Below are positions 4,538 to 35,626 of a stretch of DNA of 37,994 nt, piece by piece (positions within the stretch are counted from its first letter, which is position 1; each line of letters begins with the position of its first letter). The stretch covers positions 1 through 37,994 of the forward strand of contig CALVDM010000022.1 in assembly GCA_944326335.1 (NCBI GenBank). The letters run 5' to 3'. The notes beneath the pieces are model-generated. The model was not told where the DNA came from and made no database searches. It worked only from the letters and a program-made list of their open reading frames with translations. The DNA comes from an uncultured Bacteroidales bacterium. Its GTDB lineage: Bacteria > Bacteroidota > Bacteroidia > Bacteroidales > UBA932. The position numbers and the translations under genes were made by a program.

Positions 4538-5464
4538 CTATTCAGCCTTTCCGATATGTACATCGAGCTGCGGGAACGGGAATCCTATGCCGTTCTCAGG
4601 CACTCTGTTGTATATCACCTCGTTCACGTCGTACAGCACTGACCAGTAGTCCTCGCTCCTGACCCAGGCCCTCATGACATACTGGACGCTGCTGTCTCTC
4701 AACGCGTTCAGGGCTACCATAGGGTCTGCCGGGACTTCAGGGGCACGCAAAATCCTCTTCTCGTCCCTGATTATCGACATCAGCACTTCCTTCATCTTTT
4801 CAGAGGACGCTCCGTATTCCACATCAACAAGCCACTCGAGCCGGCGGAAGCGGTTCTGGGAGTAATTGTTGATTGTCCCGTTCGACAGGGACCCGTTAGG
4901 GATGACGATTATGCGGTTGTCGGTAGTCGTGAGTTTGGTGCTCACAATAGAAACTTCAGAGACTGTTCCGCTGTATCCCTGGGCCTCGATGAAGTCACCT
5001 GCCTTGAACGGCTTGAACACAAGGAGCATGATTCCTCCGGCGAAATTCTGCACGGTGCCGCTGAGCGCCATACCTATTGCCATACCTCCTGCGGCAAGCA
5101 GGGCTGCGAGGGAAGTGGTGTTCACCCCGAGGGCGCTGATGGTGAATATTACAAGAAAGACAGTCAGGGCAATGCTGACGAGGCTTTCTACAAATGACGC
5201 AATCGAATGCTCGGTCTTCCTCCTGACGAAGATGTTGTGGACCATCTTCTTTATCTTCTTGATAATCCACGCGCCGATGATGTAGATTGCAAGTGCGGCA
5301 AGCACCTTGAGACCGAAGGCGATAGCCTTGTCTCCAAACTCCGACAGCAGCTGGTCAGCCGGAGTAGTGGCGATTTTCTCGACAAATTCCTCCGTGGCCT
5401 TCTGCAGGTCCAGAGTGTCCGCAGCAGCTGTAGCGGAAGCGGACTGCAATAATTGGAATAACAT
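4538..5464 (-). CDS. mscS: Small-conductance mechanosensitive channel (MscS family)
   Basis: Inner-membrane tension-gated channel that releases solutes on osmotic downshock. The 308-residue protein has an N-terminal periplasmic helix, TM1 (about 50-70, KVLAALAIYIIGAWII), TM2 (about 88-110) and the pore helix TM3 with the glycine/alanine pattern AALLAAGGMAIGMALSGTVQNFAGG. The beta domain follows (FKPFKAGDFIEAQGYSGTVSEVSIVSTKLTT, VIPNGSLSNGTINNYS), and the C-terminus ends in the family-typical FPFPQLDVHI. Length matches E. coli MscS (286) plus a short N-terminal extension. It starts 12 bases after the cysteate synthase stop and is the last gene of the hdr-like run, so it is probably cotranscribed. 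No functional link to that run is evident. Confidence 0.95.
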   Translation of the reverse strand: MLFQLLQSASATAAADTLDLQKATEEFVEKIATTPADQLLSEFGDKAIAFGLKVLAALAIYIIGAWIIKKIKKMVHNIFVRRKTEHSIASFVESLVSIALTVFLVIFTISALGVNTTSLAALLAAGGMAIGMALSGTVQNFAGGIMLLVFKPFKAGDFIEAQGYSGTVSEVSIVSTKLTTTDNRIIVIPNGSLSNGTINNYSQNRFRRLEWLVDVEYGASSEKMKEVLMSIIRDEKRILRAPEVPADPMVALNALRDSSVQYVMRAWVRSEDYWSVLYDVNEVIYNRVPENGIGFPFPQLDVHIGKAE

Positions 5465-5476
5465 GTTATGCAGATT

Positions 5477-6763
5477 TTAGAACAACTCTTCGATTCTGCG
5501 GATTATCTCTGCCGAGCCGAGCGACGGGTCAAGGACTATGTCCGGCTCCTCATACACCACATCCTTGCTGGATTTCGCGAAAGCCTCTCCGCCTCCCGTG
5601 ATATTCAGCATGATGATGTCCTCCCTGCCGACACGTCCTTCCTTCACGGCCTTGTCGAGGCTCGAAACAGCAACGGCAGCTGCGGAATAGATGTCAGTGC
5701 CTTCAAGCTCCAGGAATTTCGCCTTCCACAAGTCGATTTCACTGTTCGAGACATTGTATATGTCGCCACCGGTATCCGTCAGCGCGTCATAGACTCCTCC
5801 GGCGATTGAATACGGCGGTTTCCTGTTGGAAAGTACCTTGGCCTTTATGATGGAGGCCTGTTCCCTTGCGTCTTCCGGGGTGAGCGGAAGAAGGTCCCTC
5901 GAGGCCGCCTTCCATGAATCGTACATTATGGTGAAAGGGATGTTCTGTGAAGGGTACAGTTTCATCTTCTTCGTGCCGAAACGTCCGTCGGCAATGAGCC
6001 TGAGGTTGTTTTCCCATACAGCAATCGTTCCTGTGCCGCTTCCTATGGCCTGGAAGTAGGCATCCGGAATCTGTCCGATTTTCTCGACAGCAGACAGTAT
6101 GGTGGTGCCCATTCCGTCTCTCCTCGCTATGTTCTTCGCCCCTCCTTCTGCAAGGAAGCGTCCGGACTCGCACACTTTGTCCGCAAGGGCTATGGCGTCG
6201 AAATAGTCTGCGCCTGCCGGTGCCGCCATTATCTTCACGCAGTCGTCAAGAGGCTTGTCGAACCAAAGAGCATGGATGTTGTCGTACGGGATGCTGAGCA
6301 GAAGCGGAATCCCGTTGTCGGAGCAGACCTTTGCGAAGGCCCTTGCCGTGTTGCCGGCAGATGCCACCACAAGCACCCTCTCCTCGTCACGTGGAAGCCT
6401 GGCGCAAACTGAATACGCCTCTGTCTCCTTGAACGAGCACGTCTGCATGAACGCCCCGATTTCAGGATAGTAGCCTGAGAATGTTATGAAGAGATTGTCG
6501 AGCTTCAGCAAGTCCGCAAGTCCTTTACTCCTGTATGTGACGGGAGGGCATGAATTTGAAAGCGTCCTTTTAATAGGGAGCCAGTTGGCGAATCTGTAGA
6601 AACCGTCAAGGTCGTCCCTCACTTCGAACTTCCTGTTCGCGTACACTGCCCTGACAAGGGACGGTGTCTTGCTCTGAGGGTCTGAAAGCGTCCATCCGGC
6701 GTCCTCAAAAATCCTTCCGTCGGCGCAATTCATCAATTTGTAGTCTGTAGGTTTAAAGGTCAT
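5477..6763 (-). CDS. Cysteate synthase (threonine-synthase-like PLP enzyme)
   Basis: Predicted to replace the phosphate of O-phospho-L-serine with sulfite, giving L-cysteate. It is a fold-type II PLP protein of 428 residues. The Schiff-base lysine is K112 in TCSFKETEAY; the phosphate/PLP segment is ASAGNTARAFA (134-144), and a glycine loop AIGSGTG lies near 238-244. From memory of the archaeal (Methanosarcina) cysteate synthase, several stretches match it far better than threonine synthase: FANWLP, PVTYRSKGL, SGYYPEIGA, EGGAKNIARRDGMGT and NRKPPYSIAGGVYDALTDTGG. The N-terminal zinc-ribbon cysteines of the archaeal enzyme are mostly missing (only C13 remains). Cysteate feeds coenzyme M in some methanogens and capnine-type sulfonolipids in Bacteroidota; the second is likelier here. 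It lies 25 bases after the HdrDE-like gene and 12 before mscS. Automated annotation as threonine synthase is the alternative. Confidence 0.82.
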   Translation of the reverse strand: MTFKPTDYKLMNCADGRIFEDAGWTLSDPQSKTPSLVRAVYANRKFEVRDDLDGFYRFANWLPIKRTLSNSCPPVTYRSKGLADLLKLDNLFITFSGYYPEIGAFMQTCSFKETEAYSVCARLPRDEERVLVVASAGNTARAFAKVCSDNGIPLLLSIPYDNIHALWFDKPLDDCVKIMAAPAGADYFDAIALADKVCESGRFLAEGGAKNIARRDGMGTTILSAVEKIGQIPDAYFQAIGSGTGTIAVWENNLRLIADGRFGTKKMKLYPSQNIPFTIMYDSWKAASRDLLPLTPEDAREQASIIKAKVLSNRKPPYSIAGGVYDALTDTGGDIYNVSNSEIDLWKAKFLELEGTDIYSAAAVAVSSLDKAVKEGRVGREDIIMLNITGGGEAFAKSSKDVVYEEPDIVLDPSLGSAEIIRRIEELF

Positions 6764-6788
6764 GATATTCAGTACATTTATATCTTGT

Positions 6789-8654
6789 TCATGAAATTTT
6801 ACCGTATCCTGATGCCCTGTCCACCACCTGGGCGATATCCTCCACCGGGCGGTCGGAATATCTCGCGAAGGTGTCGAGGCAAAGAGGGCATGCGGTCACT
6901 ATCCTGTCCGGAGAAGCAGCGACAAGGTTTGACAAGGCGTTCTCTGTCATCGCCCTGCGCTTGTCGAATCCGAGAGTCAGGCTTCCGAGGCTTCCTCCGC
7001 AGCAGATGCTTTCCTTCCGGTTCCTGGCAGCTTCCACGACTTCTCCGGCGGCGGCTATCACGTTGCGCGGCTGTTCATACACTCCGCAGCCTCTTCCGAG
7101 TTCGCAAGGGTCGTGGAAGACGTATTTTGTCGAGCTCTTCCTCATCTTAAGCCTTCCGTCGGAAATCAGCCTCTCGAAATATTCAGTATGGTGTATTATC
7201 TCGATTCCCGGGAGCGTGTACCGCTCCCTGAAAATTTTGTAGCAGATAGGGCATGAGAGCAGAAGCACGTCGGCCCCCGAATTCATGATTATTTCCGTGT
7301 TCTTTGCCACGAGTTCGTCTGCCTGGGCGAATCTTCCTGCCATGAACATCGGCCTTCCGCAGCAGATTCCGCCGTCGCGGTCCATCATTTCATAGTCCAC
7401 ACCGGCCTTCGTGAGCACAGACTCGGTTGTCTTCCTTATGACAGGCGTCAAGGCTGTCATGCATCCGGCAAAATATAAGACGCGTTCATTATCAGTACGT
7501 GAAACATTATTGTTAATTTTCTTAACAAATTTGTTACATCTTTCTGACTGCAATTTTGTGTCTATATTAGAGTAGTCCGGGCCGAAATTGTACCTTCGGG
7601 TGGAGCGTTGGGCAATCCTCAGCTTGTCTCCTTCGACTCCGACAGGACACACTGCCGTGCACTTTCCGCAGAGAAGACATTTGTCGCTTATTTCCTCTAT
7701 CCTCGGCTCGTTCTTCCTGCGGATTTGCCTGTTCAGATAGACTGTCGTGTCCCTGATGTTCCCTTTCATCACACCCATAGGGCAGGCGTCTATGCACAGT
7801 CCGCAGCTCGGGCAGGAATATACCTGGGCCCTGGCGAAGCCTTTCCTTGCGTTGACTATCCTGATTCCTGCGTTCCTGAGCGGTATGAGCAGAATCTCGG
7901 CAGGGATGTGCATGTACCTAGTGAACGGGAGCACGCAGAAGAATATGCCCAGGGCGCAGGAATATGCCCACCAGGCCGGCAGCATGTTGGCATGGTTGCT
8001 CAGGAACTCCGTGAACACGTAGTTCAGTGACTTGGTCAGGAAGGAGCCTCCGCTTATGTCTGCAGTGAAGGATTCCGCAAGAAGCCTGAGCGGGAATATT
8101 GACCAGAGGGAATACAGCCCTATCAGGTCGAGGAAACTCGGGTTAGTCGTCCTGCGCATGCCGAAGAAACGGGAGCGAACCCTCTTGATTATGGCCAGCA
8201 CAATGCCGCTCAGCACGACAAGGAGGAAGAAGTCCATCAGAAAGAATATCAGGGCCCCCTTCATGGTGCTCTCGGTCTCAGCGACGAAGTATCTGAAGAA
8301 GATAGGGTAGTAGAGGGCTTTCGCGCCGAGATGCGAAGTGTACAGGAACACCTCTATATGTCCCACGACAATCAGCATGAACCATCCGAAAGCTATGCTC
8401 GAATGCATGTAGCCGAGCAGCTTGTTCCTTTTCCACAGGTCCACATGGATGAGGCATTTGAGGAAGATGTCCTTGACGTTCTTCACCATCGTCTTCGGCG
8501 TGACGAGCGAAAGGAAGAACCGTTTCCTGTCACTTGCCGGGAGCTGGGCGATTATCCTTATCAAGCCTACAAGGCAGTAGGTGAGCACGAACAGCATGCC
8601 CACCACGAACGGGAGCACGAAGTCGTTGTAGCCGGTAAGAAATCTCTCTCTCAT
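6789..8654 (-). CDS. Membrane HdrDE-like (NarI-type / Fe-S / double CCG) subunit
   Basis: Predicted inner-membrane electron-transfer subunit of 621 residues. Residues 1-280 hold about five or six transmembrane segments with histidines (LGYMHSS, IVVGHIE) resembling the NarI/HdrE haem b domain, which would exchange electrons with quinone. Residues about 300-400 hold two 4Fe-4S motifs, CPSCGLCIDACP and CLLCGKCTAVCP. The C-terminal part is HdrD/GlpC-like with two intact CCG modules: FAGC...GICCGRP...SCPIC and DPCELGRGCG...SICCGGS...ACPLC. The ATG at 8654 overlaps the stop of the small HdrC-like gene (ATGA) and is preceded by GGGAGG; a longer reading to 8879 would only shadow that gene. It most resembles HdrDE fusions. 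The electron acceptor or disulfide substrate is unknown. Confidence 0.88.
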   Translation of the reverse strand: MRERFLTGYNDFVLPFVVGMLFVLTYCLVGLIRIIAQLPASDRKRFFLSLVTPKTMVKNVKDIFLKCLIHVDLWKRNKLLGYMHSSIAFGWFMLIVVGHIEVFLYTSHLGAKALYYPIFFRYFVAETESTMKGALIFFLMDFFLLVVLSGIVLAIIKRVRSRFFGMRRTTNPSFLDLIGLYSLWSIFPLRLLAESFTADISGGSFLTKSLNYVFTEFLSNHANMLPAWWAYSCALGIFFCVLPFTRYMHIPAEILLIPLRNAGIRIVNARKGFARAQVYSCPSCGLCIDACPMGVMKGNIRDTTVYLNRQIRRKNEPRIEEISDKCLLCGKCTAVCPVGVEGDKLRIAQRSTRRYNFGPDYSNIDTKLQSERCNKFVKKINNNVSRTDNERVLYFAGCMTALTPVIRKTTESVLTKAGVDYEMMDRDGGICCGRPMFMAGRFAQADELVAKNTEIIMNSGADVLLLSCPICYKIFRERYTLPGIEIIHHTEYFERLISDGRLKMRKSSTKYVFHDPCELGRGCGVYEQPRNVIAAAGEVVEAARNRKESICCGGSLGSLTLGFDKRRAMTENALSNLVAASPDRIVTACPLCLDTFARYSDRPVEDIAQVVDRASGYGKIS

Positions 8655-8983
8655 TTCCCGTCCTCCCTGTATATCCTGAATATGGAAAGTATCAGATGCC
8701 TGGTGTTGATTCCTCTCGGGCAGACCATGCTGCACTTGCCGCACAGCATGCAGTTCCGGAGCATCGCCACGGCTTCCTTCTCCTTGCCCCTCTGCAGGGC
8801 GGTGATGACCTTCCTCATGCTCATGCCGGAGAATGGAGATGCCGGGCATGTCGCGCTGCAGGAACCGCAGGCCATGCACTTGTAGACATCGGGCTCCATC
8901 CTGTGAAGTTCCTCGAACTTTGTGAGGTCCACATTGTCGAGATTTATTGCAGAGCTCGGAGATATTTTGAAACCGAAATCCAT
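8651..8983 (-). CDS. HdrC-like ferredoxin subunit (small)
   Basis: Small cytoplasmic electron carrier of 110 residues with two 4Fe-4S motifs, CMACGSCSATCP (about residues 36-47) and CMLCGKCSMVCP (about 78-89), spaced as in HdrC and the N-terminus of GlpC/QmoC. The stretch ISPSSAINLDNVD before the first motif and the end HLILSIFRIYREDGK are also HdrC-like. The start is ATG at 8983, giving a one-base TGATG overlap with the HdrA-like stop; GTG at 8986 is possible. Its stop overlaps the ATG of the membrane subunit. The tight overlaps suggest a fixed stoichiometry with its neighbours. It likely passes electrons between the HdrA-like flavoprotein and the membrane subunit, as HdrC and QmoC modules do. 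Confidence 0.88.
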   Translation of the reverse strand: MDFGFKISPSSAINLDNVDLTKFEELHRMEPDVYKCMACGSCSATCPASPFSGMSMRKVITALQRGKEKEAVAMLRNCMLCGKCSMVCPRGINTRHLILSIFRIYREDGK

Positions 8984-10002
8984 CACTTCAACCCCTTTAT
9001 GAACAGATGCACCTTCAGAGCCGCAGCCCTTGCTTCGGCAAGGGTCTCAGGGACAGTCTTCGGCCCGGTGCAGGCTCCGGCATAGAATATCCCGTCCCTC
9101 GGGGACTCGATGATTTCCGCGACATTGTCCCTCGACTTCAGGAATCCGTCGGAGTCTATCGGGAGGCTGACCATGTTCGCAAGCCTTGTGCTGTCAGTGT
9201 TGCAGATTATGCCTGCCATGAGCACGAGCAGGTCGAGCGTCACTTTCACAGGCTTTCCGGACAGGGTGTCTTCAGCCTTCACTATCACCCTTCCGTCGAT
9301 GTTTTCGCTGACTTCCGATACCCTTCCGCGTATGAAACGGATTCCATAGTCCCGCTGGGCGTTGATGTAGAAATCCTCATACTTCTTCCCGAACATCCTC
9401 AGGTCCATGTAGAAGCAATAGACCATGGCCTCAGGGAATCTCTGCTTCAACTCGATGGCCTGCTTGATTGCCGTTATGCAGCAGACCTTGGAGCACTGGG
9501 GATTCCTTGCCTTCTCGTCTCTCGACCCTACGCAGTGTACAAAGCCGACGGCATTCATCGCGCTGTCGTTCACCCGCTTGTCGTCGCCGGTGTTGAACCA
9601 GTGTTCGAGATCCTTGTTGGTCATCACCTGGTCGTAGACCCCGTAACCGTATTCCTCCTTTTTCGCAGCGTCGAACAGGGCGAACCCCGTAGTCATCACG
9701 ATTATGCGCGTGTTTATGGATATGCCGTTGGACAGCATTATGTTATAGCTGTCCTTCAGTTTGTTCACGAATGATATTTCGGTATTCAGGAAGATGTTGG
9801 CTTCCGAAGCCCTTGCAATGAGGTTGCCTACCACGTCCCTTGCCGGAATCATGTCCGGGAACAGAAGGTTCCAGTCCGCCACATGGCCTCCGAGACGGTC
9901 CCGCTTCTCTATGACGATAGGCTTGTAGCCGAGGTCGAGCAGCTGGACGGCCACTTCAAGCCCTGCTATGCCGCCTCCTATTATGACTATGTTCTCTTTC
10001 AT
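8983..10002 (-). CDS. HdrA-like FAD-dependent oxidoreductase (minimal form)
   Basis: Cytoplasmic flavoprotein of 339 residues. The N-terminal Rossmann motif IVIIGGGIAGLEVAVQLLDLG followed by VIEKRDRLGGH binds FAD; the C-terminal FAD segment is GIFYAGACTGPKTVPETLAEARAAA. The middle has the HdrA-type cysteine cluster QCSKVCC (near 174-180) after GSRDEKARNP, and the FYMDLRMFGKKYEDFY block typical of HdrA and QmoA. Methanogen HdrA is about twice as long; this one has no C-terminal ferredoxin domains and no N-terminal extension, so it is closer in build to a QmoA-type core. It follows the HdrB-like gene by 32 bases and overlaps the small HdrC-like gene by one. A flavin hub for the complex is inferred; true electron bifurcation cannot be read from sequence. 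Confidence 0.88.
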   Translation of the reverse strand: MKENIVIIGGGIAGLEVAVQLLDLGYKPIVIEKRDRLGGHVADWNLLFPDMIPARDVVGNLIARASEANIFLNTEISFVNKLKDSYNIMLSNGISINTRIIVMTTGFALFDAAKKEEYGYGVYDQVMTNKDLEHWFNTGDDKRVNDSAMNAVGFVHCVGSRDEKARNPQCSKVCCITAIKQAIELKQRFPEAMVYCFYMDLRMFGKKYEDFYINAQRDYGIRFIRGRVSEVSENIDGRVIVKAEDTLSGKPVKVTLDLLVLMAGIICNTDSTRLANMVSLPIDSDGFLKSRDNVAEIIESPRDGIFYAGACTGPKTVPETLAEARAAALKVHLFIKGLK

Positions 10003-10034
10003 TCAGATTCAGGTTTCAGTGTATGTGACATTCC

Positions 10035-11105
10035 TCAGCAGCATCTGAGCACTCCGGGCAACTCCGGCCTGCTGAGTTCTTTCTCGTTAAGACCCTTGTA
10101 TTTCTCCGATGGGTCATATTCGACACCGAGCTTGTCGAGAAGCGGCTCCACGGCAACCTGATGAAGCTGGAGCCCTATGTCCCACGGATTGTACCCCAGC
10201 ACGAGCGATGCAAGCTCCTCGTAGGTGAGCACCGGGATTCCGTAGCCGTTTTCCCCGTAGGTCTTTCCCTCTGTCTCTGCGATGACATATTGCCACCTGT
10301 CCATGAAATACGGACATCCCGGGCAGTTTGTGAGGATGAAGTCCGGATGATATGGCGCCATCGACTCGAATTTCTTGTATGTGTTCGAGACAGAATAGCC
10401 CCTGTTCGCCTTCACATGATACTGCCTGAAGCCGTAGCCGCAGCAGTGACGCCGTTCAGGGTAGTCGATGACATTGCCGCCCCAGGATTCAATCATCCCG
10501 CACAGCACATACGGATATTCAGCACCTCCGACCCCTTTTGAAGGGAACATCTTGGAATAGTGGCACCCTATGTGCTCGACAACGCGCAGCGGCTCTCCCG
10601 TGAACCTGTTCACGAGCCTGAATTTTGCCCTGGACGCTATCTCGTTCCTGTACTTGTAGATGAGGTCGCTCGCATGGGCTACATATTTCGGCTTGTTGAA
10701 CTCCCTCCGGCATGCCTTCCACAGCATTTCCCTTATCCTCGTCTCGACCTCCGGGAATTCCCTCCAGGTCTCGAGTATCTCTATGTAGTTGCCGAATGAA
10801 GTTATGCAGGAGGCGACGTAGTTCTCGTATCCGGCCTCAGTCATGAGAGAGAACTGCCTTGCCACTATCGTCATGACAGTCTCCTGCGGTATGGTGTCGC
10901 AGTGATACGCTATGCCTCCGCATGTCGTGTGATATTCCGTCTCGTAGAAATCCTTCTTCAGGACTTCGCGGCAGATTTCGAGGAACATCTTCTCCGCCCC
11001 GGGAAAGAAATTCTGCCTTATGCAGCTTCTGACATAGAACCAGTGGTTGTCAGGAATCTCTTTCTGATAGTCTGCCCATATTTTCTGTTTACCTTGATAT
11101 ATCAT
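10035..11105 (-). CDS. HdrB-like CCG-domain protein
   Basis: Predicted soluble subunit of 356 residues related to HdrB, whose two CCG domains each hold a non-cubane 4Fe-4S cluster. The second domain is intact: HIGCHYSKMFP, HCCGYGFRQYH and TNCPGCPYF (residues about 177-270). The first looks degraded: after C28 (RSCIRQNFFPG) the CCG is TCGG (C62) and the final CxxC is CITS, so two of five canonical cysteines are missing. A tail of about 80 residues beyond the second domain ends in two cysteines (RCC). The start at 11105 is 24 bases after the HdrC-like stop. It would hold the substrate site for a disulfide or similar sulfur compound if the parallel with HdrB holds. The substrate is unknown. Confidence 0.85.
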   Translation of the reverse strand: MIYQGKQKIWADYQKEIPDNHWFYVRSCIRQNFFPGAEKMFLEICREVLKKDFYETEYHTTCGGIAYHCDTIPQETVMTIVARQFSLMTEAGYENYVASCITSFGNYIEILETWREFPEVETRIREMLWKACRREFNKPKYVAHASDLIYKYRNEIASRAKFRLVNRFTGEPLRVVEHIGCHYSKMFPSKGVGGAEYPYVLCGMIESWGGNVIDYPERRHCCGYGFRQYHVKANRGYSVSNTYKKFESMAPYHPDFILTNCPGCPYFMDRWQYVIAETEGKTYGENGYGIPVLTYEELASLVLGYNPWDIGLQLHQVAVEPLLDKLGVEYDPSEKYKGLNEKELSRPELPGVLRCC

Positions 11106-11129
11106 ATCCGGTGATTCATTCTTGAAAAT

Positions 11130-11831
11130 TCAGTCTTCGTTGTTGAGATGCCTTTCGGATGTGTGTTCGAAAGTCTCCTTGAAATAAGTGTCCATGTCCA
11201 TTCCCATTTCGGCCGCCTTCTCCCGGGAGTATTTCTCGACTGTCTCGATGCGTTCCGTACCTCCGGTGACGTCGAAGATTTTCTTGAGCTCGTCGAGCGA
11301 TTCCTGCGGGATATTCCTGAGCACCCCGGGACCTTCTCCCTTGAAATTGGCCCCGACGCGTTCCATGGAATCCCTGATATGCTCGGTGTGCCATTTCCAG
11401 ACAGGGCCGGATTCCATGTGGTCCTCCCATTTGAAGGTGTCCGGATAGACGCAGTATCCGTAATTAAGGATATTACCCGTGAGGATTCTGGTGAGCGGGT
11501 ACAGCTGGCGCCCCTTTTCGGAGCAGACAAAGTAGCCGAGTTTCGCTGAAAGGTTCCTCAAGGCCATTATCACGAGTCCCGGACCATTCTTCCGGGGACA
11601 GCGCGTGACGCAGGACATGCATTCCCCGCAATACCAGATGAAGTCGCTTTTCAGGAGTCTTTCGATTTCCTCCTCGTCACGGCTCTGGACAATGTCCATG
11701 ACCTTTCTCGGATCGTATTTGTAAAATTCGGCTGCAGGGCAGATGGCTGTGCATGTGCCGCAGTTTATGCAGGTCTTCAGACCCTCCTTCACCCTGTAAT
11801 CCTTCAGAAGTTCGTCGTATAATTTACCCAT
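11130..11831 (-). CDS. HdrC-like 4Fe-4S protein with C-terminal extension
   Basis: First gene of the hdr-like run, 233 residues. Two 4Fe-4S motifs, CINCGTCTAICP (21-32) and CGECMSCVTRCP (about 69-80), are spaced as in HdrC. A tail of about 130 residues follows, rich in charged and aromatic residues, ending in a predicted helical acidic stretch; HdrC proteins are normally shorter. The ATG at 11831 is chosen because a TATATTTG promoter element at 11853-11860 lies about 20 bases upstream, which rules out a longer reading to 11978 inside rlmD. It probably pairs with the HdrB-like protein encoded 24 bases downstream, as HdrC does with HdrB. Confidence 0.86.
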   Translation of the reverse strand: MGKLYDELLKDYRVKEGLKTCINCGTCTAICPAAEFYKYDPRKVMDIVQSRDEEEIERLLKSDFIWYCGECMSCVTRCPRKNGPGLVIMALRNLSAKLGYFVCSEKGRQLYPLTRILTGNILNYGYCVYPDTFKWEDHMESGPVWKWHTEHIRDSMERVGANFKGEGPGVLRNIPQESLDELKKIFDVTGGTERIETVEKYSREKAAEMGMDMDTYFKETFEHTSERHLNNED

Positions 11832-11852: not shown

Positions 11853-11860
11853 CAAATATA
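11853..11860 (-). promoter_or_regulatory. -7 element for the hdr-like operon
   Basis: On the minus strand this reads TATATTTG, a perfect Bacteroidota -7 box, with a T-rich region upstream overlapping the end of rlmD. Transcription would start near 11847, about 16 bases before the HdrC-like ATG. No other promoter of this quality is seen before mscS, so this one may drive all seven genes. Confidence 0.65.
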
Positions 11861-13398: not shown

Positions 13399-13470
13399 AT
13401 GAAAGGTATTCCGGCTGACGCCGCCGGAAACAAATTGGTAGTATTTGTAAACTTAACAAAATCGAAATGA
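13399..13470 (+). CDS. Possible 23-residue leader ORF
   Basis: A short ATG-to-TGA frame lies between the predicted transcription start and the large lipoprotein gene, and its TGA overlaps the lipoprotein ATG as ATGA (13467-13470). The product would begin MKGIPADAAG and end NLTKSK, with a valine-rich middle and no signal peptide. The position suggests either a translated leader that couples initiation of the lipoprotein or a chance frame in the 5' leader. No family is recognised. Its start lies almost at the predicted transcription start, so it would be read from a nearly leaderless message. Confidence 0.3.
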   Translation: MKGIPADAAGNKLVVFVNLTKSK

Positions 13471-16400
13471 CAAAGCATTTGTTTAAACAGGCAGCCAGTG
13501 TCTTGGCTGCTGCCTCTGTCCTTGCCTTGTCCTCTGCGTGCGTCAATGAAGAATATGACTTGACGGACATAGACACGACTGTGGCATTCGGAGGTGAAGC
13601 TCTCGTGTTTCCGCTCGGAAGTACGGAATACATGAAGCTCGAGACTTTGCTCTCTGAAGAGGACTTCGATTACCTTGTGGAACTGGACGGGGGAGTCTAT
13701 GGATTCCAGATGGAGGACAACCTTGACCTTTCTGAAGAAATTCCGGATATCGCTTCCGAACTTCAGATGGAACCTGTCAGGATTGATGAGTCCTTCGGGC
13801 ATACGATAGACATAGACATGACCTCGATGAACATAGAGGAGACACGGTTCCCGGCTGACGGGGAGGGGGACATCACATTTTCCGATGTGGAGATTCCGGA
13901 CATAGACAACATCATTCCGGCCGGGCCTTACAGCCAGTCAGTGAAGCCGGAACTGCCGGATGTGTCACAGATGGACCTCGACCTTCACCTCCAGTCGTAC
14001 GAAATGTCGTCCGGAAACCTGTATGACCCTTCCGAACTCATCCAGTACATAGATGCACTGCAGGTAGGGGATGACGAGCCGGTAACCATCGAGGAGAAGT
14101 GGATGAATATGGCCATTCCTTTACGCAAGGGGGATGCCCAGGCGAACATCTCCGTGCACATAGAGCTCGACGAATCTCTGTCGGACATCCAGGTCACGGA
14201 ACTTTCCGACCAGGCCAGAATGATTGTCACTGCAACCCTCGACAATTCATTCTTTTCGTCCGGGACAGTGACTCCGGAGATAACACTGGAGAACATAGGG
14301 GAAATCGTTACTCTCATGGAGGACGACGGATTCGACCCTGCTGACGGTTCGCTGGACCTCGGCAGGAAACTGGCCTTCAATGCTGACGGTTCCGTAAATC
14401 CTACGGCAAGGTATGAATATGCGATTACCGGACTCGGCGACATGCAGTGGACCGGCAATGTGCTTGACAAGAATATCTCCATCTCGGCTCTCGGCGACAT
14501 CCGGCTTTCCGGTGTAACCACGACGAAATCCCTCGTCAAAAATTCGGGGGCCCTCGGCATAGACGTGTCCATAGCATTCGAGAATGTTGAGATAGAAGAC
14601 ATGACAATGCAGGTCGGGCAGATTTCGGAGCAGGAGAACACTCGGATTGACCTCGGCATAGAGCCTGTCACGCTTCAGGACCCGGTGCAGTCTGTAGGCG
14701 AAATCCTCATGGAAGAAAATTCTTTCCTGAACATAATGATCGGTTCGGAAGGTATGGCACACATGCCCGGACTTGACGCAAAACTCGGAAATCTGGTCAT
14801 AAAGTTCCCGGATGAGATAAAATTCGGCGATTACCAGGGTCTTGACAGGAACAGCAACACTCTCTCAATGACGGATATAGACCTCATGAGCGAGAGCCGG
14901 ATATCTTTGCCTGTACTCTCCATAGTGCCTCCTGCACCTGTGGACAACCAGATTGTCTTCGACGGGCAGGTACTCGTGGAGGCTGCATTCTCGGCAGGCG
15001 GGGAAGTGACCCTGTCCGGGCTCAGACAGGCAGCTGAACCTGCAGTCAATTTCAATGTCGAGCCTGACATCCGTGTTGCGTACTACAATGTCGCGGTAAA
15101 CCCCGTAGAGCACGATGTTGACATCAGGGAGGACATGTCGATACAGCTTCCCGAGAACATGGAGGATATCGGGACGGTAAAGGTGACCCCTGACAATACC
15201 AAAAGCATCATCATTGACATAGCCGCCCCAGATCTTCAGGATCTGAAAATTGCCGGCGACAATCTCAAAATTTCATTCCCGGACATGATTGTATTCAAGG
15301 ATATGGACGGCTCCTACGGCTACGACCCTTCCGACAATTCGCTGAATTTCAACGGAGCGTTGCCTCAGGACCCGATTATCCTGGACATAGATTACATACG
15401 GGTGGTGCCTGAAAAGGACGAGACCGGGACCGGTTATGTGGCAAGCGGTGAAGTGTCCATCACCGGGAAAGCTGTGCTGAGAAGCGTCAACAGCGACAAC
15501 TCCGTGCGGAAGTCCGACATAGAAGCGATTTTCGACGAGACATCGGGCGGCATTTCCGTGAGCGGGACCGTACCGGCAATCAATATCGCCGAATGTACAG
15601 TGGAGATGGAACGTTTCGAAGTGCAGGTGGACGAGACCGTGTCCGTGGATATTTTCGACACCGGCAAGCTTCCGGAAGGGATTGAAAGCATAACCATAGA
15701 CCAGGTTCTTCTCAAGGACTCCGAACTCAATCTCGGCCTCATCGCGTCCAGCCTGCCTGACCTCGGTTCGGATCCTAAGCTGGATATCGAAGTGCAGCTG
15801 CCTCCGGAGATTGTCACCGGAAGTGACCTGGTGGATAGCGACAATGTGCTCCACCTGACCGGCACATTCTCTGAAAACGAGTATCACATGGAGCCGGTCG
15901 CCATCACGTCGATCGACCTGAGCAACGTGGACCTCATGGAAGGCGGAATGATAGCAAGGGACATCGTCATAACCGGAAGAATCTATGTGGAAGCTCCGAG
16001 CATCTCCGACCCTGAGTCGCTGAACGGCACCGAAGTCAGCGTCAATGTGACCGGAAACATGAATGTCGGGATAGACAAGATAACCGGAAATCTCGGCTAC
16101 AAGATAGGGGAGGACGGCTCTGACAACATGAGCCAGGAGATAAGCCTCGAGGACCTTCCCGAGTTCATGAAAGGCGAAGATTTCGTGCTTGATTTCACCA
16201 ATCCGCACATCATACTCGATGTGGAGAGCAATGTCGGCATTCCTGTCAAAGGGACTGTTGCGATAGTTCCTGTCTACGGGGACACTCAGGACGATTCCAA
16301 AAAGCAGACACTTGAAATAACCATACCGAAGGCGGATGGCGTACTCACCACCACTTCGTTCTGGGTTTCAGCAGAAGACAATGCCCCGTCGGGCTACAGC

Positions 16401-17096
16401 TGGCTGAAGGCCGATATCCCGGCTCTGTTGAGACAGATTCCTGACAAGCTCCAGATTGACATAACGGCAGAGACGGACCCTGACGAGAAATTCGAGGTTG
16501 TCACGTTCATCGACGAGGACAATGACGGAATAAATGACGGGTACACATTCAGCCTCGGCTACAATGTAGTGGTTCCGTTCGAGTTCGGGGAAGACCTTGA
16601 CATTAAGATGGATATTACCTATCCGGACTCAGGGGACGGAGAGCAGGCAGGTGACGGCACAGAAGGTGGAGACACCGGAAGCGAGACACTTCCTCCTGTG
16701 CTCGGGGAGCTCCTGAACATGAATTCACTCGGCCTGAGCGGAGAGATAGAATCAACTCTTCCTCTGCAGATGCGCCTTGTCATCGAACTCCTTGATTCTG
16801 AAAAGAAGGTCATCGCTACTGAGCCGATGTCAATGAACATTGCAGCAGGCAGGGAAGGGGAGCCGTCCATATCTCCGATAGACATGCAGATAAAGCTGGC
16901 ACAGGGTGCTGACGGAAAAGACCTCAGCTATATCAAACTCAATTTCGAGATAACTTCCGGCAACATGAGCGGTGAGCCTGTGACGAAAGATTCGTATATC
17001 CGCGCAACTCTGAAGGCAAAGGTGCCTGGAGGGGTGACTATTGACCTGAGCGAACTCGGAGAAAGCGAAAATTCCGAATCCGAAACAGAAAACTGA
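13467..17096 (+). CDS. Large acidic repeat-containing lipoprotein
   Basis: Unrecognised exported lipoprotein of 1,209 residues. The signal peptide ends in the lipobox LSSAC (C25); acidic residues right after it (CVNEEYD) resemble Bacteroidota surface-export signals, so an outer-face location is plausible. The mature chain is very acidic and beta-rich, with long strands separated by D/E/S/N turns. Degenerate repeats recur near residues 440, 598 and 772, each with a strand plus a proline-aspartate turn (VIKFPDEIKF, KISFPDMIVF, EVQLPPEIV). A calcium-loop-like DEDNDGINDG lies near 1018-1027 and a Gly/Asp/Glu linker near 1053-1075. Its N-terminal pattern (YDLTDIDTT) resembles uncharacterised Bacteroidales lipoproteins. 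The DUF5723 gene follows after 5 bases, so the two are probably one unit. Function is unknown. Confidence 0.88.
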   Translation: MTKHLFKQAASVLAAASVLALSSACVNEEYDLTDIDTTVAFGGEALVFPLGSTEYMKLETLLSEEDFDYLVELDGGVYGFQMEDNLDLSEEIPDIASELQMEPVRIDESFGHTIDIDMTSMNIEETRFPADGEGDITFSDVEIPDIDNIIPAGPYSQSVKPELPDVSQMDLDLHLQSYEMSSGNLYDPSELIQYIDALQVGDDEPVTIEEKWMNMAIPLRKGDAQANISVHIELDESLSDIQVTELSDQARMIVTATLDNSFFSSGTVTPEITLENIGEIVTLMEDDGFDPADGSLDLGRKLAFNADGSVNPTARYEYAITGLGDMQWTGNVLDKNISISALGDIRLSGVTTTKSLVKNSGALGIDVSIAFENVEIEDMTMQVGQISEQENTRIDLGIEPVTLQDPVQSVGEILMEENSFLNIMIGSEGMAHMPGLDAKLGNLVIKFPDEIKFGDYQGLDRNSNTLSMTDIDLMSESRISLPVLSIVPPAPVDNQIVFDGQVLVEAAFSAGGEVTLSGLRQAAEPAVNFNVEPDIRVAYYNVAVNPVEHDVDIREDMSIQLPENMEDIGTVKVTPDNTKSIIIDIAAPDLQDLKIAGDNLKISFPDMIVFKDMDGSYGYDPSDNSLNFNGALPQDPIILDIDYIRVVPEKDETGTGYVASGEVSITGKAVLRSVNSDNSVRKSDIEAIFDETSGGISVSGTVPAINIAECTVEMERFEVQVDETVSVDIFDTGKLPEGIESITIDQVLLKDSELNLGLIASSLPDLGSDPKLDIEVQLPPEIVTGSDLVDSDNVLHLTGTFSENEYHMEPVAITSIDLSNVDLMEGGMIARDIVITGRIYVEAPSISDPESLNGTEVSVNVTGNMNVGIDKITGNLGYKIGEDGSDNMSQEISLEDLPEFMKGEDFVLDFTNPHIILDVESNVGIPVKGTVAIVPVYGDTQDDSKKQTLEITIPKADGVLTTTSFWVSAEDNAPSGYSWLKADIPALLRQIPDKLQIDITAETDPDEKFEVVTFIDEDNDGINDGYTFSLGYNVVVPFEFGEDLDIKMDITYPDSGDGEQAGDGTEGGDTGSETLPPVLGELLNMNSLGLSGEIESTLPLQMRLVIELLDSEKKVIATEPMSMNIAAGREGEPSISPIDMQIKLAQGADGKDLSYIKLNFEITSGNMSGEPVTKDSYIRATLKAKVPGGVTIDLSELGESENSESETEN

Positions 17097-21230: not shown

Positions 21231-22445
21231 TTACCTGTCCCTGAAAAGGATGGAGCTGTCCCCGTAGCTCAGGAAACGGAATCCATGCTCCATAGCGAAG
21301 TCATACACAGGTCTCCATCCGCCTCCGATGAAAGCGGATATAAGGAGCAGCAGAGTGCTCTGGGGCTGATGGAAATTCGTCACGAGGGCATCGGTTATCC
21401 TGAACCTGAAGCCCGGGACGATGATTATCCTCGTGCCGAGTTTCAGTTCGTCGAGGCCGTTCCTGTCGAGATAGTCAGATATGGCCAGCAAGGCTTCACG
21501 GGTGCTGTATTGATATTCCCTCTCGTAGGGACACCATTGTCCCACATCTTCAGGATGTCCTTTCTCAATGCAGCTGACACCGGCATAGTACAGGGATTCG
21601 AGAGTCCTTACGGATGTCGTTCCTACAGCCGTGACATGCTTCCTGTGCTCCGCCGCAAGCGTCCGGAGCAGGGATTTGCTGACAGTGAAAGGCTCTCTGT
21701 GCATGCGGTGTCCGGATATCGTCTCCGACTTCACCGGCAGGAATGTCCCTGCCCCTACATGAAGGCACACGGTCTCCATGTCAACGCCTTTCCCCCGGAT
21801 TGCCCCGATTTCGGCATCGGTGAAATGAAGGCCGGCAGTAGGCGCGGCGACGGAGCCACGGTATTTTGCGTACAGAGTCTGGTACCGTTCCCGGTCTATG
21901 GCTTCCGTATCTCTGTTGAGATAAGGCGGGATGGGGATTGAGCCGCATATCTCAAGGACCTTGGAAAAGGGCTCGCCACCTTTCCACGACAGTTCTACGA
22001 CGGCCACTTCGTTGTCCCGCCCAACCAGTTCCGCCCTCAGGTCCATGGCCGTGACTGCCGGGTCTGAGGATGGGTTGTACAGATGCAGCACATCTGATTT
22101 CCAGCGTTTTACGTTCCCTACGATGCATTTCCACCGGCATTTTCCTGTGGTCGAAAATATCTGGTTGTATTCGGCAGGCTGCACAGGCTCGAGGCAGAAT
22201 ATCTCGATGTGTGCGCCGGTATCCCTCTGGAAATGCAGCCTTGCAGGCACCACCTTGGTGTCGTTGAATACCATGACGGAGTCTCCCGGTATGAAGTCCG
22301 GTATTTCCTTGAATGAATGTTCCCGTGGGGTGCCGTCCTTGTAGACGAGCAGTTTGGACGAATCCCGCTGCGGCAGGGGATATTTTGCAATCCTCTCCTC
22401 CGGGAGTACGTAATCGTAGTCTGTTATCTTTATTACAGGTATCAT
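21231..22445 (-). CDS. queA: tRNA S-adenosylmethionine ribosyltransferase-isomerase
   Basis: Transfers and isomerises the ribosyl part of SAM onto 7-aminomethyl-7-deazaguanine in tRNA (wobble position of GUN anticodons), giving epoxyqueuosine. At 404 residues it is longer than the usual about 345 of E. coli QueA. Motifs include the N-terminal YDYVLPEERIAKYPLPQRD and SKLLVY, VFNDTKVVPARL, the central AAPTAGLHFT, HVGAGTFLPVK, the glycine-rich VGTTSVRTLESL, and the C-terminal TNFHQPQSTLLLLISAFIG. All match the family. The extra length comes mainly from an insert around residues 95-130 (CRWKCIVGNVKRWK). A TATTTTCG -7-like element lies at 22466-22473. No other queuosine gene is nearby. Confidence 0.95.
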   Translation of the reverse strand: MIPVIKITDYDYVLPEERIAKYPLPQRDSSKLLVYKDGTPREHSFKEIPDFIPGDSVMVFNDTKVVPARLHFQRDTGAHIEIFCLEPVQPAEYNQIFSTTGKCRWKCIVGNVKRWKSDVLHLYNPSSDPAVTAMDLRAELVGRDNEVAVVELSWKGGEPFSKVLEICGSIPIPPYLNRDTEAIDRERYQTLYAKYRGSVAAPTAGLHFTDAEIGAIRGKGVDMETVCLHVGAGTFLPVKSETISGHRMHREPFTVSKSLLRTLAAEHRKHVTAVGTTSVRTLESLYYAGVSCIEKGHPEDVGQWCPYEREYQYSTREALLAISDYLDRNGLDELKLGTRIIIVPGFRFRITDALVTNFHQPQSTLLLLISAFIGGGWRPVYDFAMEHGFRFLSYGDSSILFRDR

Positions 22446-22930
22446 CTCATTAAAAAAAACTTATGCGAAAATACTCAATTCATGTCAAAACAGAAAACAA
22501 CATCTCTAAATCTTCGTTATTTACAAATGTAATTTACATCTTGAACCACACAGATAACATTATTATACAAAAATCCAGGATTATGGGAGATTTTGGGAAC
22601 TTCTGTAAAATGTTCAGAAATGTTTAATAAGAAAAATTTATCCTAAAAAATCTTATGTATAAATACAGTATAATCAGAGTTTTACCGATAATCATATAAA
22701 TTAATGCGAGATATTGTACGTGTAAATTTCCAGTCTAATTTGTCTAAAAATGTAAATTTGCGGAGATGTGGGAATCAAATCCAATATATTCAGACGATTA
22801 CAGATATAACATAAAGTAATGCTTCAACAAGTTATCCTGTCCTCCCCTATCTATTTCCAAATGTAAACCGAGAATTGATTACATTTGCTAACAAATTTTT
22901 CGTTACATTTGTAAACAAAACGATTACAAT
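22446..22930. promoter_or_regulatory. AT-rich divergent control region
   Basis: A gene-free stretch of 485 bases, far richer in A and T than its surroundings. It holds the queA -7-like box (22466-22473, minus: TATTTTCG), a minus-strand TACATTTG near 22513-22520, TGTAAATTT repeated 30 bases apart (22721-22729 and 22751-22759), a TAAATTTG box at 22753-22760 on the plus strand, and two TACATTTG boxes before the HTH gene. I see no coding frame of note and no recognisable structured RNA. Confidence 0.7.
22880..22919 (+). promoter_or_regulatory. Promoter and likely operators of the HTH regulator
   Basis: Two boxes, TACATTTG at 22880-22887 and at 22904-22911, start 24 bases apart. Each runs into a partial inverted repeat, TTTGCTAACAAA (22884-22895) and TTTGTAAACAAA (22908-22919), i.e. 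TTTG-N4-CAAA. The second box fits a -7 element 20 bases before the ATG, so a dimer bound here would cover the promoter. Autoregulation is inferred. Confidence 0.55.
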
Positions 22931-23365
22931 ATGAACGAGCGTCTGAAGCAGTTTCTTGCTGCGGAAAACATATCGCAGGCGGCCTTTGCAGACAAGATTG
23001 ACGTTGCGAGGGCGAATGTCTCGCATATACTGTCCGGACGTAACAGGCCCGGATATGACTTTTTTGCAAGCCTGATCAGAAACTACCCTTCCCTGAACAT
23101 CGAGTGGCTCATCACCGGCAAAGGCAGGATGTACAAGACTTCCACGCAGGAAGCGGCTTCAGCTTCAGACCTGTTCTCCTTCCCTGCGGCACAGGAAAAA
23201 AAGACGGAAACGCCTGTACAGGACACTGTGGAGGCGGTCCCGGTGCAGGAAAATGCCATGGAAGCACCCTCCGGCTCCCCTTCTGCCCCTGCCGTGAAGC
23301 CGCGCAAAGCCGTGAAGATAATCGTATTCTACGATGACAATACGTTCGAGGAATTTGAAAAATGA
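22931..23365 (+). CDS. XRE-type helix-turn-helix regulator
   Basis: Predicted DNA-binding protein of 144 residues. Residues about 1-65 form a Cro/CI-type HTH: the recognition part is AFADKIDVARANVSHILSGRNRPGYDF, followed by SLNIEWLITGKGRM, the usual end of this domain in Bacteroidota. A long low-complexity linker of Ala/Pro/Glu/Ser (about 70-125) leads to a basic stretch (KPRKAVKIIVFY) and a short acidic tail (DDNTFEEFEK). That tail pattern recurs in small Bacteroidota HTH proteins; its role is unknown. The control sites directly upstream look like operators for an XRE dimer. A separate promoter for pyrD follows, so the regulator may be monocistronic. Confidence 0.85.
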   Translation: MNERLKQFLAAENISQAAFADKIDVARANVSHILSGRNRPGYDFFASLIRNYPSLNIEWLITGKGRMYKTSTQEAASASDLFSFPAAQEKKTETPVQDTVEAVPVQENAMEAPSGSPSAPAVKPRKAVKIIVFYDDNTFEEFEK

Positions 23366-34213: not shown

Positions 34214-35626
34214 TTACTCTGATTGATTTTCGTTTTGCATATTCATGTTTGTAAGGGTCCTGCCCTGATATTCGCCGGTGAGGGCTTCGAGATAGCTTTC
34301 TATTTTCCCGCAGTCATTCGCGGAGATTTTTCTGCCCACCTGGAATCTCGCCATCTTGGTTATGGCTTCACCGAGAGACCCGACGCTGCCGTCATGATAG
34401 TACGGCCATGTGAGAGCCACGTTGCGCAGCCCCGGAGTCTTGAACCTGTAGCGGTCCCTCTCTACCCCGGTCTGTGCCCAGCGGCCGTTGTCCCCGTCCG
34501 TAAGGCCGGACTTGAGGGTGAGGTCGCGGTCTTCGAAATAGTTGTCGCGCTGCCCCATCAGCTCATATGTCAGGCCTCCCATATTCACTCCGGCATGGCA
34601 TGTCGCACAGTTGTATTCCTTGAAAAGCCCGTAACCTTCAATCTGTTCCGCAGTCATGGCGTCGTCATCGCCCTTGAGATAGCGGTCAAACGCCGAATCC
34701 GGGGTTATGAGGGTCTTCTCGAACTCTGCGATGGCGTCCGTTATTGTCTCCTGGCTGAGACCTTCAGGGTACACGGCCGTGAACTTCCTGACGAAGTCCC
34801 TGTCTTCCGAAAGCCTTCCCACAATCTCGCCGAAATCCTTGCAGCCCATCTCGACAGGATTCAATGGAGGTCCGCCGGCCTGTTCCGCAAGTGTAGCCGC
34901 ACGACCGTCCCAGAACTGCACGAAATTGAACACGGAATTGAAGACAGTAGGGGCGTTCACTCCGCCGAACTGTCCGCCTATACCTTCCGAGTAACGCTTG
35001 TTGTCAACTCCCGCGGTCTGGAGCCCGTGGCATGTCGCACACGAGACGGTGCCGTCTGCGGAAAGCCTCGTGTCATGATAGAGCAAATCCCCGAGTTCGG
35101 CCTTACGGGCATCGTAAGGCACGCTGTCAGGTATCGGACGTATGGGTTCGTCGGCGAATTGCGGTGCTGAAAGCGGGCTCGGATAGAACTTTGTACGCAA
35201 TTCCTTCACGGCGGCAAGGGCAATCTGCTCCTTCGCTCCGGTGATTGACGAGCCCCAATGCACGAGATAATACTGGGCAAGAGGCATGGAGCCGTCAGAG
35301 AGACTCCGCTCCACCTTTGCGAGGTCCACTTCACAAGGAGCGTCCCCGTCTGCGAGAGAGTTCTCGAAAGGCATTATGTCAAACACCGCATAGCCTTCTT
35401 CAATATGTTTTCCAATCAGGGATTTCGCCACCGGCCACTTCGCGTAGAACGGCAATACCGGATTTGCGGAATGGCATTCCGCGCATCCCCCGTCCTGAAG
35501 AATCTGCAGCAGCTGCTCCCGGGCCGCAAGTTCTGCGGATGGAGCCTTGTTTACAGCCCTGTAGACTATTGCAAGCACGGCCACCACGACCACGGCGGCG
35601 AGCAGGATTTTAGAGCTATTCTTCAT
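34214..35626 (-). CDS. Tri-haem cytochrome c peroxidase
   Basis: Predicted periplasmic, membrane-anchored peroxidase reducing H2O2 with electrons from a c-type cytochrome or quinol. It has 470 residues with an N-terminal anchor (about 7-24, ILLAAVVVVAVLAIVYRAV). Three CxxCH haem sites are visible: CAECH at 48-52 in an extra N-terminal haem domain (about 30-150), and CATCH near 195-199 and 337-341 in the usual di-haem peroxidase core. Core segments VNAPTVFNSVFNFVQFWDGR and KTPGLRNVALTWPYYHDGSV are CcpA/MauG-like. The extra domain could deliver electrons directly, as in quinol-linked tri-haem peroxidases. It is encoded 61 bases after the haem-assembly genes resB and ccsA, so its maturation is probably their job. 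Confidence 0.93.
   Translation of the reverse strand: MKNSSKILLAAVVVVAVLAIVYRAVNKAPSAELAAREQLLQILQDGGCAECHSANPVLPFYAKWPVAKSLIGKHIEEGYAVFDIMPFENSLADGDAPCEVDLAKVERSLSDGSMPLAQYYLVHWGSSITGAKEQIALAAVKELRTKFYPSPLSAPQFADEPIRPIPDSVPYDARKAELGDLLYHDTRLSADGTVSCATCHGLQTAGVDNKRYSEGIGGQFGGVNAPTVFNSVFNFVQFWDGRAATLAEQAGGPPLNPVEMGCKDFGEIVGRLSEDRDFVRKFTAVYPEGLSQETITDAIAEFEKTLITPDSAFDRYLKGDDDAMTAEQIEGYGLFKEYNCATCHAGVNMGGLTYELMGQRDNYFEDRDLTLKSGLTDGDNGRWAQTGVERDRYRFKTPGLRNVALTWPYYHDGSVGSLGEAITKMARFQVGRKISANDCGKIESYLEALTGEYQGRTLTNMNMQNENQSE

Follow-up and report, generated by a model that had tools for sequence, protein, structure and literature searches.

An Hdr-like operon that runs into cysteate synthase: a candidate sulfite source for sulfonolipid synthesis in Bacteroidales

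Contig CALVDM010000022.1 (GenBank assembly GCA_944326335.1) comes from an uncultured Bacteroidales bacterium whose nearest relatives bearing a genus-like name, in a cysteate synthase (CS) search of GTDB contigs, are Candidatus Cryptobacteroides. The source genome comprises 2.34 Mb in 61 contigs and is 89.7% complete, and the window, by which we mean the whole stretch of 37,994 nucleotides analysed here, is one entire contig (G000:C22; G, C and L numbers are our labels for genomes, contigs and loci). On its minus strand, read 5' to 3', rlmD (13291-11879) is followed by five genes for proteins resembling subunits of heterodisulfide reductase (Hdr), namely hdrC1, hdrB, hdrA, hdrC2 and hdrDE, then by a CS gene and by mscS:

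11853..11860, minus strand: candidate Bacteroidetes -7 promoter box TATATTTG, 5' of hdrC1, found by pattern search
11130..11831, minus strand: HdrC1, 233 amino acids, two 4Fe-4S motifs, assigned by Hdr model matches
10035..11105, minus strand: HdrB, 356 amino acids, one complete and one degenerate CCG motif, assigned by Hdr model matches
8983..10002, minus strand: short HdrA, flavoprotein of 339 amino acids, one 4Fe-4S motif, assigned by its match to PDB 6tjr
8651..8983, minus strand: HdrC2, 110 amino acids, two 4Fe-4S motifs, alternative GTG start at 8986, assigned by Hdr model matches
6789..8654, minus strand: HdrDE, 621 amino acids, a membrane part, two 4Fe-4S and two complete CCG motifs, assigned by model matches
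5477..6763, minus strand: CS, a pyridoxal phosphate enzyme of 428 amino acids, assigned by TIGR03844 and PDB 9k3c
4538..5464, minus strand: MscS-type channel with no known pathway role, assigned by profile match

The original prediction, made from the letters of this DNA, described six genes on one strand that lead from hdr into CS, overlapping or spaced by at most 32 bases. We confirmed this arrangement: all six open reading frames (ORFs) from hdrC1 to CS are intact, with gaps of 24 bases (hdrC1-hdrB) and 32 bases (hdrB-hdrA), overlaps of 1 base (hdrA/hdrC2, the hdrC2 ATG lying at 8983) and 4 bases (hdrC2/hdrDE, the hdrDE ATG lying at 8654), and a gap of 25 bases (hdrDE-CS). The block had been drawn one gene short, since mscS (5464-4538) begins 12 bases past CS and the tight spacing extends to it. 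The only TAnnTTTG on the minus strand between 4538 and 11860, a motif that we take to be the Bacteroidetes-type promoter box, lies just 5' of hdrC1 at 11853-11860, and no convincing -33 box was seen upstream of hdrC1; because the whole window holds 17 such boxes against 10.5 expected, this one alone is weak evidence of a promoter. A simple scan found no terminator between hdrDE and CS, and the two sigma-70-like matches near 6762-6823 follow the consensus of a promoter type presumably not expected in this organism, so that the separating signal which would have told against a joint unit was not seen. The hdr genes and CS are probably made from one transcript, and mscS is probably its last gene. 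Elsewhere in the window, five TAnnTTTG boxes fall within about 390 bases (22524-22911) between an ORF end at 22445 and an ORF start at 22931.

CS scores above the TIGR03844 equivalog cut-off (442.5 versus 324.9 bits), and its residues 3-428 align with PDB 9k3c, deposited as 'Cysteate synthase' (E 5e-167); it is predicted to make cysteate from phosphoserine and sulfite. HdrA, which has no N-terminal or ferredoxin extension, aligns with methanogen HdrA over its core and with PDB 6tjr, a chain we take to be Hyphomicrobium sHdrA, over its full length (4-330 versus 3-335, E 4e-60). Invariant residues mark every subunit: the eight motif cysteines and C127 of HdrC1 (24 sequences aligned); C28, C62, C100, C181, C221, C222, C261 and C264 of HdrB (22 sequences); C157, C170, C174 and C175 of HdrA (22 sequences); eight cysteines of HdrC2 (22 sequences); and the 4Fe-4S and CCG cysteines of HdrDE together with His 70, 84 and 249 of its membrane part (25 sequences). 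HdrDE shows four hydrophobic segments, and 13 HdrDE sequences were also aligned separately. Judged from sequence, these are the components of a functional electron-transfer complex whose sites are of the disulfide or persulfide type and in which HdrDE carries a probable haem/quinone module. All matches lie under the cut-offs for CoB-CoM Hdr (HdrA 252 versus 1100, HdrB 125 versus 450, HdrC1 82 versus 350, HdrC2 38 versus 160 bits), as they do for QmoC (49.5 versus 300 bits, HdrC1), DsrK and TmcB (50.5 versus 400 and 62.7 versus 735 bits, HdrDE). The predicted identities thus stand for CS and, at the level of Hdr-like proteins, for the other five; we rejected membership in coenzyme M/B metabolism because the subunits miss the CoB-CoM Hdr cut-offs, and the proposed analogy with coenzyme M does not carry for the same reason.

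We compared the best 80 of 93 CS loci from GTDB contigs, two of the 80 coming from one metagenome-assembled genome. HdrDE lies directly 5' of CS in 56 loci, at distances of -4 to 50 bases; all five hdr genes were found by tblastn in 48 of these junction loci, the remaining eight ending at contig edges, and mscS is downstream of CS in 50. In the 57 loci where all five hdr genes were called (20 further loci being incomplete by ORF caller or at contig ends), the order is C1-B-A-C2-DE in 55 and C1-C2-DE-B-A in two, and the gaps inside the operon are at most 180 bases in 56 and reach 782 in L234, leaving no room between hdr genes for the lipoate-binding protein LbpA. One relative (G224) has a SulP sulfate-permease-family gene that overlaps the 3' end of CS in its hdr-CS operon (L147:12876-14651, plus strand). 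CS stands without adjacent hdr in the other 24 loci, with hdr elsewhere in 14 of those genomes and none in 10. A cysH match occurs in four of the 24 junction-less genomes, one of them partial, and in 0 of 20 hdr-linked relatives sampled from the 56. One junction-less genome, G247, appears to be G018 of the order-wide sample described below (identical contig and coordinates). Among seven junction-less loci that we annotated, a Na/Ca-exchanger-like gene stands 5' of CS in four (assigned by Pfam in L119 and by eye in L111, L121 and L136); at L119:9026-9985, as with the like genes of L111 and L121, it sits between rlmD and CS, the position of hdr in the window's lineage.

Some hdr-CS operons also contain CFAT, the first sulfonolipid enzyme. 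VOC-CFAT-SDR-hdrC1-B-A-C2-DE-CS forms one operon in L112, L117 and L118, and L116 is arranged likewise without the SDR. With the L107 protein as query, the CFAT family matches PDB 7u7h and 28eh, 'Cysteate-C-fatty acyltransferase', the former being, we assume, A. finegoldii SulA. In four further families hdr and CFAT are combined in other gene orders: CFAT-CSlow-hdr (L144), CFAT-CSlow-hdr-SDR-VOC (L145), CFAT-CSlow-SDR followed by hdr (L142 and L143, VOC being seen in L142), and hdr followed by CFAT (L228). Here CS-low denotes a threonine-synthase-like protein that, from its place beside CFAT, would be a cysteate synthase, perhaps CapA-like; CS-high denotes the type found in the window. Genes of sulfate assimilation appear in equivalent surroundings, as VOC-cysH-cysD-cysN-transporter-CysQ-type-CSlow beside CFAT (L224-L226), cysH-cysD-cysN-CSlow (L229/L230), CFAT-cysH-transporter-CSlow (L233) and CFAT-cysH-like-CSlow (L221-L223 and L227, whose cysH-like genes are under the TIGR02055 cut-off). 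Pfam was run on L224 and L221, other loci being assigned by similarity, and cysN, transporter and phosphatase rest on Pfam in L224 only. Because these loci were picked for the proximity of their genes in our tables, they establish the existence of such clusters and say nothing of their frequency. These data indicate that hdr and cysH occupy comparable sulfonolipid clusters.

The window's own genome carries a CFAT on another contig (G000:C2:96865-98109; 62% identity to the L107 CFAT, E 3e-178), in which the motif SQIYAKSLPM keeps the lysine reported to be specific to SulA, identified from the motif as the counterpart of the published Lys281. An SDR gene lies beside it (L232:5997-6818), SDRs being too numerous for KCR, the 3-ketocapnine reductase of the pathway, to be assigned by sequence. 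Given this CFAT-SDR pair, the operon in the window probably encodes half of a pathway that is completed by genes on another contig. Neither cysD nor cysH has a match in this genome, at 89.7% completeness, or in G008 and G224 of its family. Overlapping the SDR of the pair is the gene of a 439-amino-acid protein without a Pfam match at 1e-5 (L232:4681-6000, minus strand), whose motif looks to us like that of a condensation-type acyltransferase, and which could be the missing capnine N-acyltransferase.

We drew one even sample of 247 Bacteroidales genomes. In it, hdr was called by HdrDE at E <= 1e-60 (G047, G072, G097 and G101 having partial or split matches only); CFAT at E <= 1e-100, with negative scores for 42 genomes that matched more weakly and 30 that did not match at all (doubtful calls are G227, at 6e-81, and G154, at 1e-102 in three pieces and scored positive); CS-high as 66 genomes over the cut-off plus the fragment in G110; CS-low by a search with that clade's own protein; cysH at E <= 1e-30 (133 over the cut-off, 22 under); and cysD at E <= 1e-60. 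An apparent stop of low-scoring CS matches near 107 bits was discarded as an artefact of the E-value limit. The resulting counts are 77 genomes for hdr, 175 for CFAT, 67 for CS-high, 46 for CS-low, 161 for cysD and 155 for cysH, and no genome has both CS types, which is what one would expect if the two enzymes did the same work. Outside Bacteroidales HdrDE is rare: at E <= 1e-50 it occurs in two of 198 genomes of a class-level draw that includes some Bacteroidales, one of the two being the window's own.

Presence of hdr follows CFAT (73 of 175 CFAT+ versus 4 of 72 CFAT- genomes), and of the four hdr+CFAT- genomes G227 is doubtful while completeness is 76-82% in G156 and G164. Of the 102 CFAT+CS+ genomes, the 24 without cysD or cysH include 20 with hdr, and the 78 with either include 18 (Fisher p 2e-7); the counts are 17/21 versus 16/51 at completeness >=95%, and drawing one genome per family (57 families, 500 draws) gives a median p of 0.001 and a largest of 0.03. 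Without CFAT, hdr occurs in 0 of 37 genomes that lack sulfate genes also and in 4 of 35 that have them. With a ValS tree of 75 genomes, Pagel's test prefers the dependent over the independent model (likelihood ratio 18.5, p 0.001; simulation p 0.0036, 5/1676), and the best-fit rates place sulfate-gene loss almost only in the presence of hdr. The Pagel set held 80 of the 102 genomes, 22 of 60 with sulfate genes and no hdr being left out, which lowers the association, and five of the 80, including the counter-examples G055 and G058, had no ValS match. The association of hdr thus appears with CFAT and, among CFAT+CS+ genomes, with sulfate assimilation.

Several distinct arrangements of hdr with CFAT or CS, taken together with this distribution, mean that the link between hdr and sulfonolipid synthesis is not chance. 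The original prediction had allowed that hdr encodes a general anaerobic electron-transfer complex and that CS is its neighbour by accident, which fits the up to 69 of 77 hdr+ genomes (tables joined by eye) in which neither CS nor CFAT was seen adjacent, and the 24 of 80 best loci in which CS is not beside hdr, 14 of them from genomes with hdr elsewhere. That explanation is disfavoured by the near-absence of hdr from CFAT- genomes and by the differing ways in which hdr is arranged with sulfonolipid genes in five families, and we regard it as the least probable of those considered. We favour its counterpart, a quinone-linked complex connected with the supply of cysteate and sulfonolipid, on the strength of the operons of four loci, the four further families and the complementarity with sulfate genes.

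On balance, we favour with modest confidence the reading that the hdr complex supplies sulfite for CS in sulfonolipid synthesis, replacing assimilatory sulfate reduction. HdrC1-B-A-C2 would form a cytoplasmic flavin/iron-sulfur complex attached to the membrane haem/iron-sulfur protein HdrDE, and would oxidise reduced sulfur, probably protein-bound or sulfane, to sulfite, with the electrons passing via HdrDE to menaquinone. CS would join the sulfite to phosphoserine to give cysteate, which CFAT and probably the adjacent SDR, encoded elsewhere in the genome, would convert through capnine to sulfonolipid; the Hdr complex would in this way stand in for CysDNH as the sulfite source. Because HdrDE replaces a soluble HdrB2, electrons would go to the quinone pool, not to a lipoate protein. 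With potentials near -0.12 V for sulfite/sulfide and near -0.07 V for menaquinone, a sulfite-forming oxidation coupled to menaquinone would be slightly downhill. The broader proposal that sulfonolipid-making anaerobes run sulfur oxidation for biosynthesis, using a menaquinone-linked membrane relative of sHdr to draw lipid sulfonate from gut sulfide or thiols instead of sulfate, we advance tentatively, with a little less than even confidence.

A number of observations weigh against sulfite supply by hdr. Two of the three outcomes that the original prediction had named as telling against it are seen at the level of the order: hdr is widespread away from the synthase, adjoining CS or CFAT in only 8 of the 77 hdr+ genomes, a minimum (G000, G008, G224, G081, G185, G108, G041 and G141; tables joined by eye), and the canonical CS lies elsewhere in the sampled hdr+ genomes outside the window's family. 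The idea that hdr presence alone tracks CS was rejected, since CS occurs in 41 of the 77 genomes with hdr and in 72 of the 170 without it (p=0.13). Thirty-five hdr+CFAT+ genomes, among them G064, G112, G217 and G221, have neither CS type at the thresholds used, and a third source of cysteate probably exists for this reason. G003, G055, G058 and G201 are CFAT+CS+ without hdr, cysD or cysH; 8 of the 24 junction-less relatives showed neither hdr nor cysH (cysD was not searched there, and their completeness is unknown); and G257 and G261, also junction-less, have hdr and CS and no CFAT match. Nor does hdr act purely as a replacement, since it is retained in 18 of the 78 CFAT+CS+ genomes that assimilate sulfate. 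A single clade contributes many of the data points, and the phylogenetically independent pairs are not numerous enough to decide (two in the same direction, one opposite). Neither a lipoate-binding protein nor an sHdr-type extra gene was found between the hdr genes.

Some of these same counts would suit a complex that relieves the cell of sulfide or sulfane sulfur with quinone as acceptor, the sulfite by-product being buried in lipid by CS and CFAT: hdr is retained in those 18 sulfate-assimilating genomes and in the 35 CFAT+ genomes without detected CS. Sulfide:quinone reductase (SQR) is present in a cyanobacterial hdr operon, and an Hdr system has been proposed for sulfur oxidation and sulfide relief in Black Sea isolates, some of them Bacteroidota (PMC11129491). 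Detoxification alone does not explain the skew of hdr towards CFAT+ genomes, the CFAT-(SDR)-hdr-CS operons or the presence of cysH in comparable clusters, and we consider it unlikely, if worth keeping in mind.

Electrons might also run the other way, menaquinol reducing a disulfide, persulfide or sulfite and so protecting the pathway or removing excess sulfite. Two arguments speak for this direction: HdrDE carries two complete CCG motifs, and the classical HdrDE works as a membrane-bound disulfide reductase that receives its electrons from a quinol-type carrier. Removal of sulfite would predict that hdr accompanies the genes that make it, yet in CFAT+CS+ genomes hdr occurs mainly in their absence, and cysH fills comparable clusters, so that we judge a reductive role quite improbable.

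A VOC/glyoxalase-family protein of about 356 amino acids accompanies CFAT or hdr in hdr-type and cysH-type clusters:

L112:1870-2940, VOC
L116:2648-3718, VOC
L117:1892-2968, VOC
L118:362-1438, VOC
L142:7169-8239, VOC
L145:12902-13966, VOC
L158:5233-6303, VOC
L221:13207-14262, VOC
L224:13962-15065, VOC
L225:7237-8331, VOC
L226:6153-7268, VOC
L233:11078-12199, VOC

Its travelling with CFAT in both kinds of cluster might suggest that hdr serves some other redox step of sulfonolipid metabolism, for example one shared with VOC, instead of sulfite supply. The same observation makes VOC independent of hdr, since VOC is found in cysH clusters too; the described reductase step, KCR, uses NADPH (PMC11211663); and the distribution of hdr against cysD and cysH would be left unexplained. 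We hold such a step to be very unlikely.

If sulfite supply by hdr is correct, the hdr-CFAT-CS operons offer a concrete candidate for the sulfite source where sulfate assimilation is missing. The widespread annotation 'heterodisulfide reductase' in Bacteroidales would be explained, an anaerobic sulfite-forming route would be added, and a bioactive lipid would be tied to gut sulfide. On the broader proposal, Hdr would have a third kind of function, beside disulfide reduction in methanogens and the oxidation of sulfur by lithotrophs, and a host-active lipid would be coupled both to sulfide and to fumarate respiration. Suppression of inflammation has been reported for the sulfonolipids of gut Bacteroidota, Alistipes and Odoribacter among them (PMC9304779), and CFAT/SulA (PMC9304779), archaeal-type CS in Alistipes and Odoribacter (PMC10191378) and KCR (PMC11211663) have already been described. 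We found no literature joining sulfonolipid with heterodisulfide in a search that had most subscription journals and bioRxiv outside its reach. Within it, capnine and heterodisulfide occurred together only in the Black Sea study, which treats its Hdr system and, separately, capnine lipids without joining them in the text examined (PMC11129491); what was examined of the literature on Alistipes and heterodisulfide reductase gave no link, and a co-mention of sulfonolipid with sulfite had, in the excerpt examined, the plant-lipid sense. The words 'sulfite' and 'sulphite' are absent from the text of PMC10191378, as is 'sulfite' from that of PMC9304779.

Elsewhere in the window, a 1209-amino-acid protein without a Pfam match at 1e-5 is encoded at 13467-17096 (plus strand), and is followed by a DUF5723 protein, and a MauG/di-haem cytochrome c peroxidase-type gene lies at 34214-35626 (minus strand).

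Among known systems, CoB-CoM Hdr (HdrABC, HdrDE) shares subunit families and the CCG and 4Fe-4S motifs with the window's complex, which differs in its short HdrA, its fused HdrE- and HdrD-like parts and the absence of a coenzyme M context. Another is sHdr of Hyphomicrobium denitrificans (hdrC1B1A-hyp-hdrC2B2 with LbpA), which is reported to release sulfite from sulfane sulfur (PMC6067878, PMC12423496) and has the same C1-B1-A-C2 order and short HdrA. Its full gene set was not matched in any of the 57 loci, hyp being absent and HdrB2 replaced by the membrane HdrDE fusion; no GcvH-type match was found among the 23 window proteins scanned with Pfam, LbpA and sulfur carriers not having been searched genome-wide; and the window's complex is tied to a lipid-building pathway, not to lithotrophy. 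A plasmid search for HdrA kin returned two records, and the plasmid operon of Picosynechococcus sp. PCC 7003, hdrC1-B1-A-C2-B2-SQR, keeps the window's order with near full-length identities of 44% (HdrC1), 39% (HdrB to HdrB1) and 43% (HdrA), but has a soluble HdrB2 and SQR where the window has HdrDE; no CS or CFAT is annotated in the stretch of plasmid read. The APS reductase route (CysDN/CysH) also makes sulfite and clusters with CS-low and CFAT in other families, yet starts from sulfate and uses unrelated proteins. Finally, the window's CS resembles the archaeal-type CS of sulfonolipid-forming gut Bacteroidota, and differs in lying inside an hdr operon.

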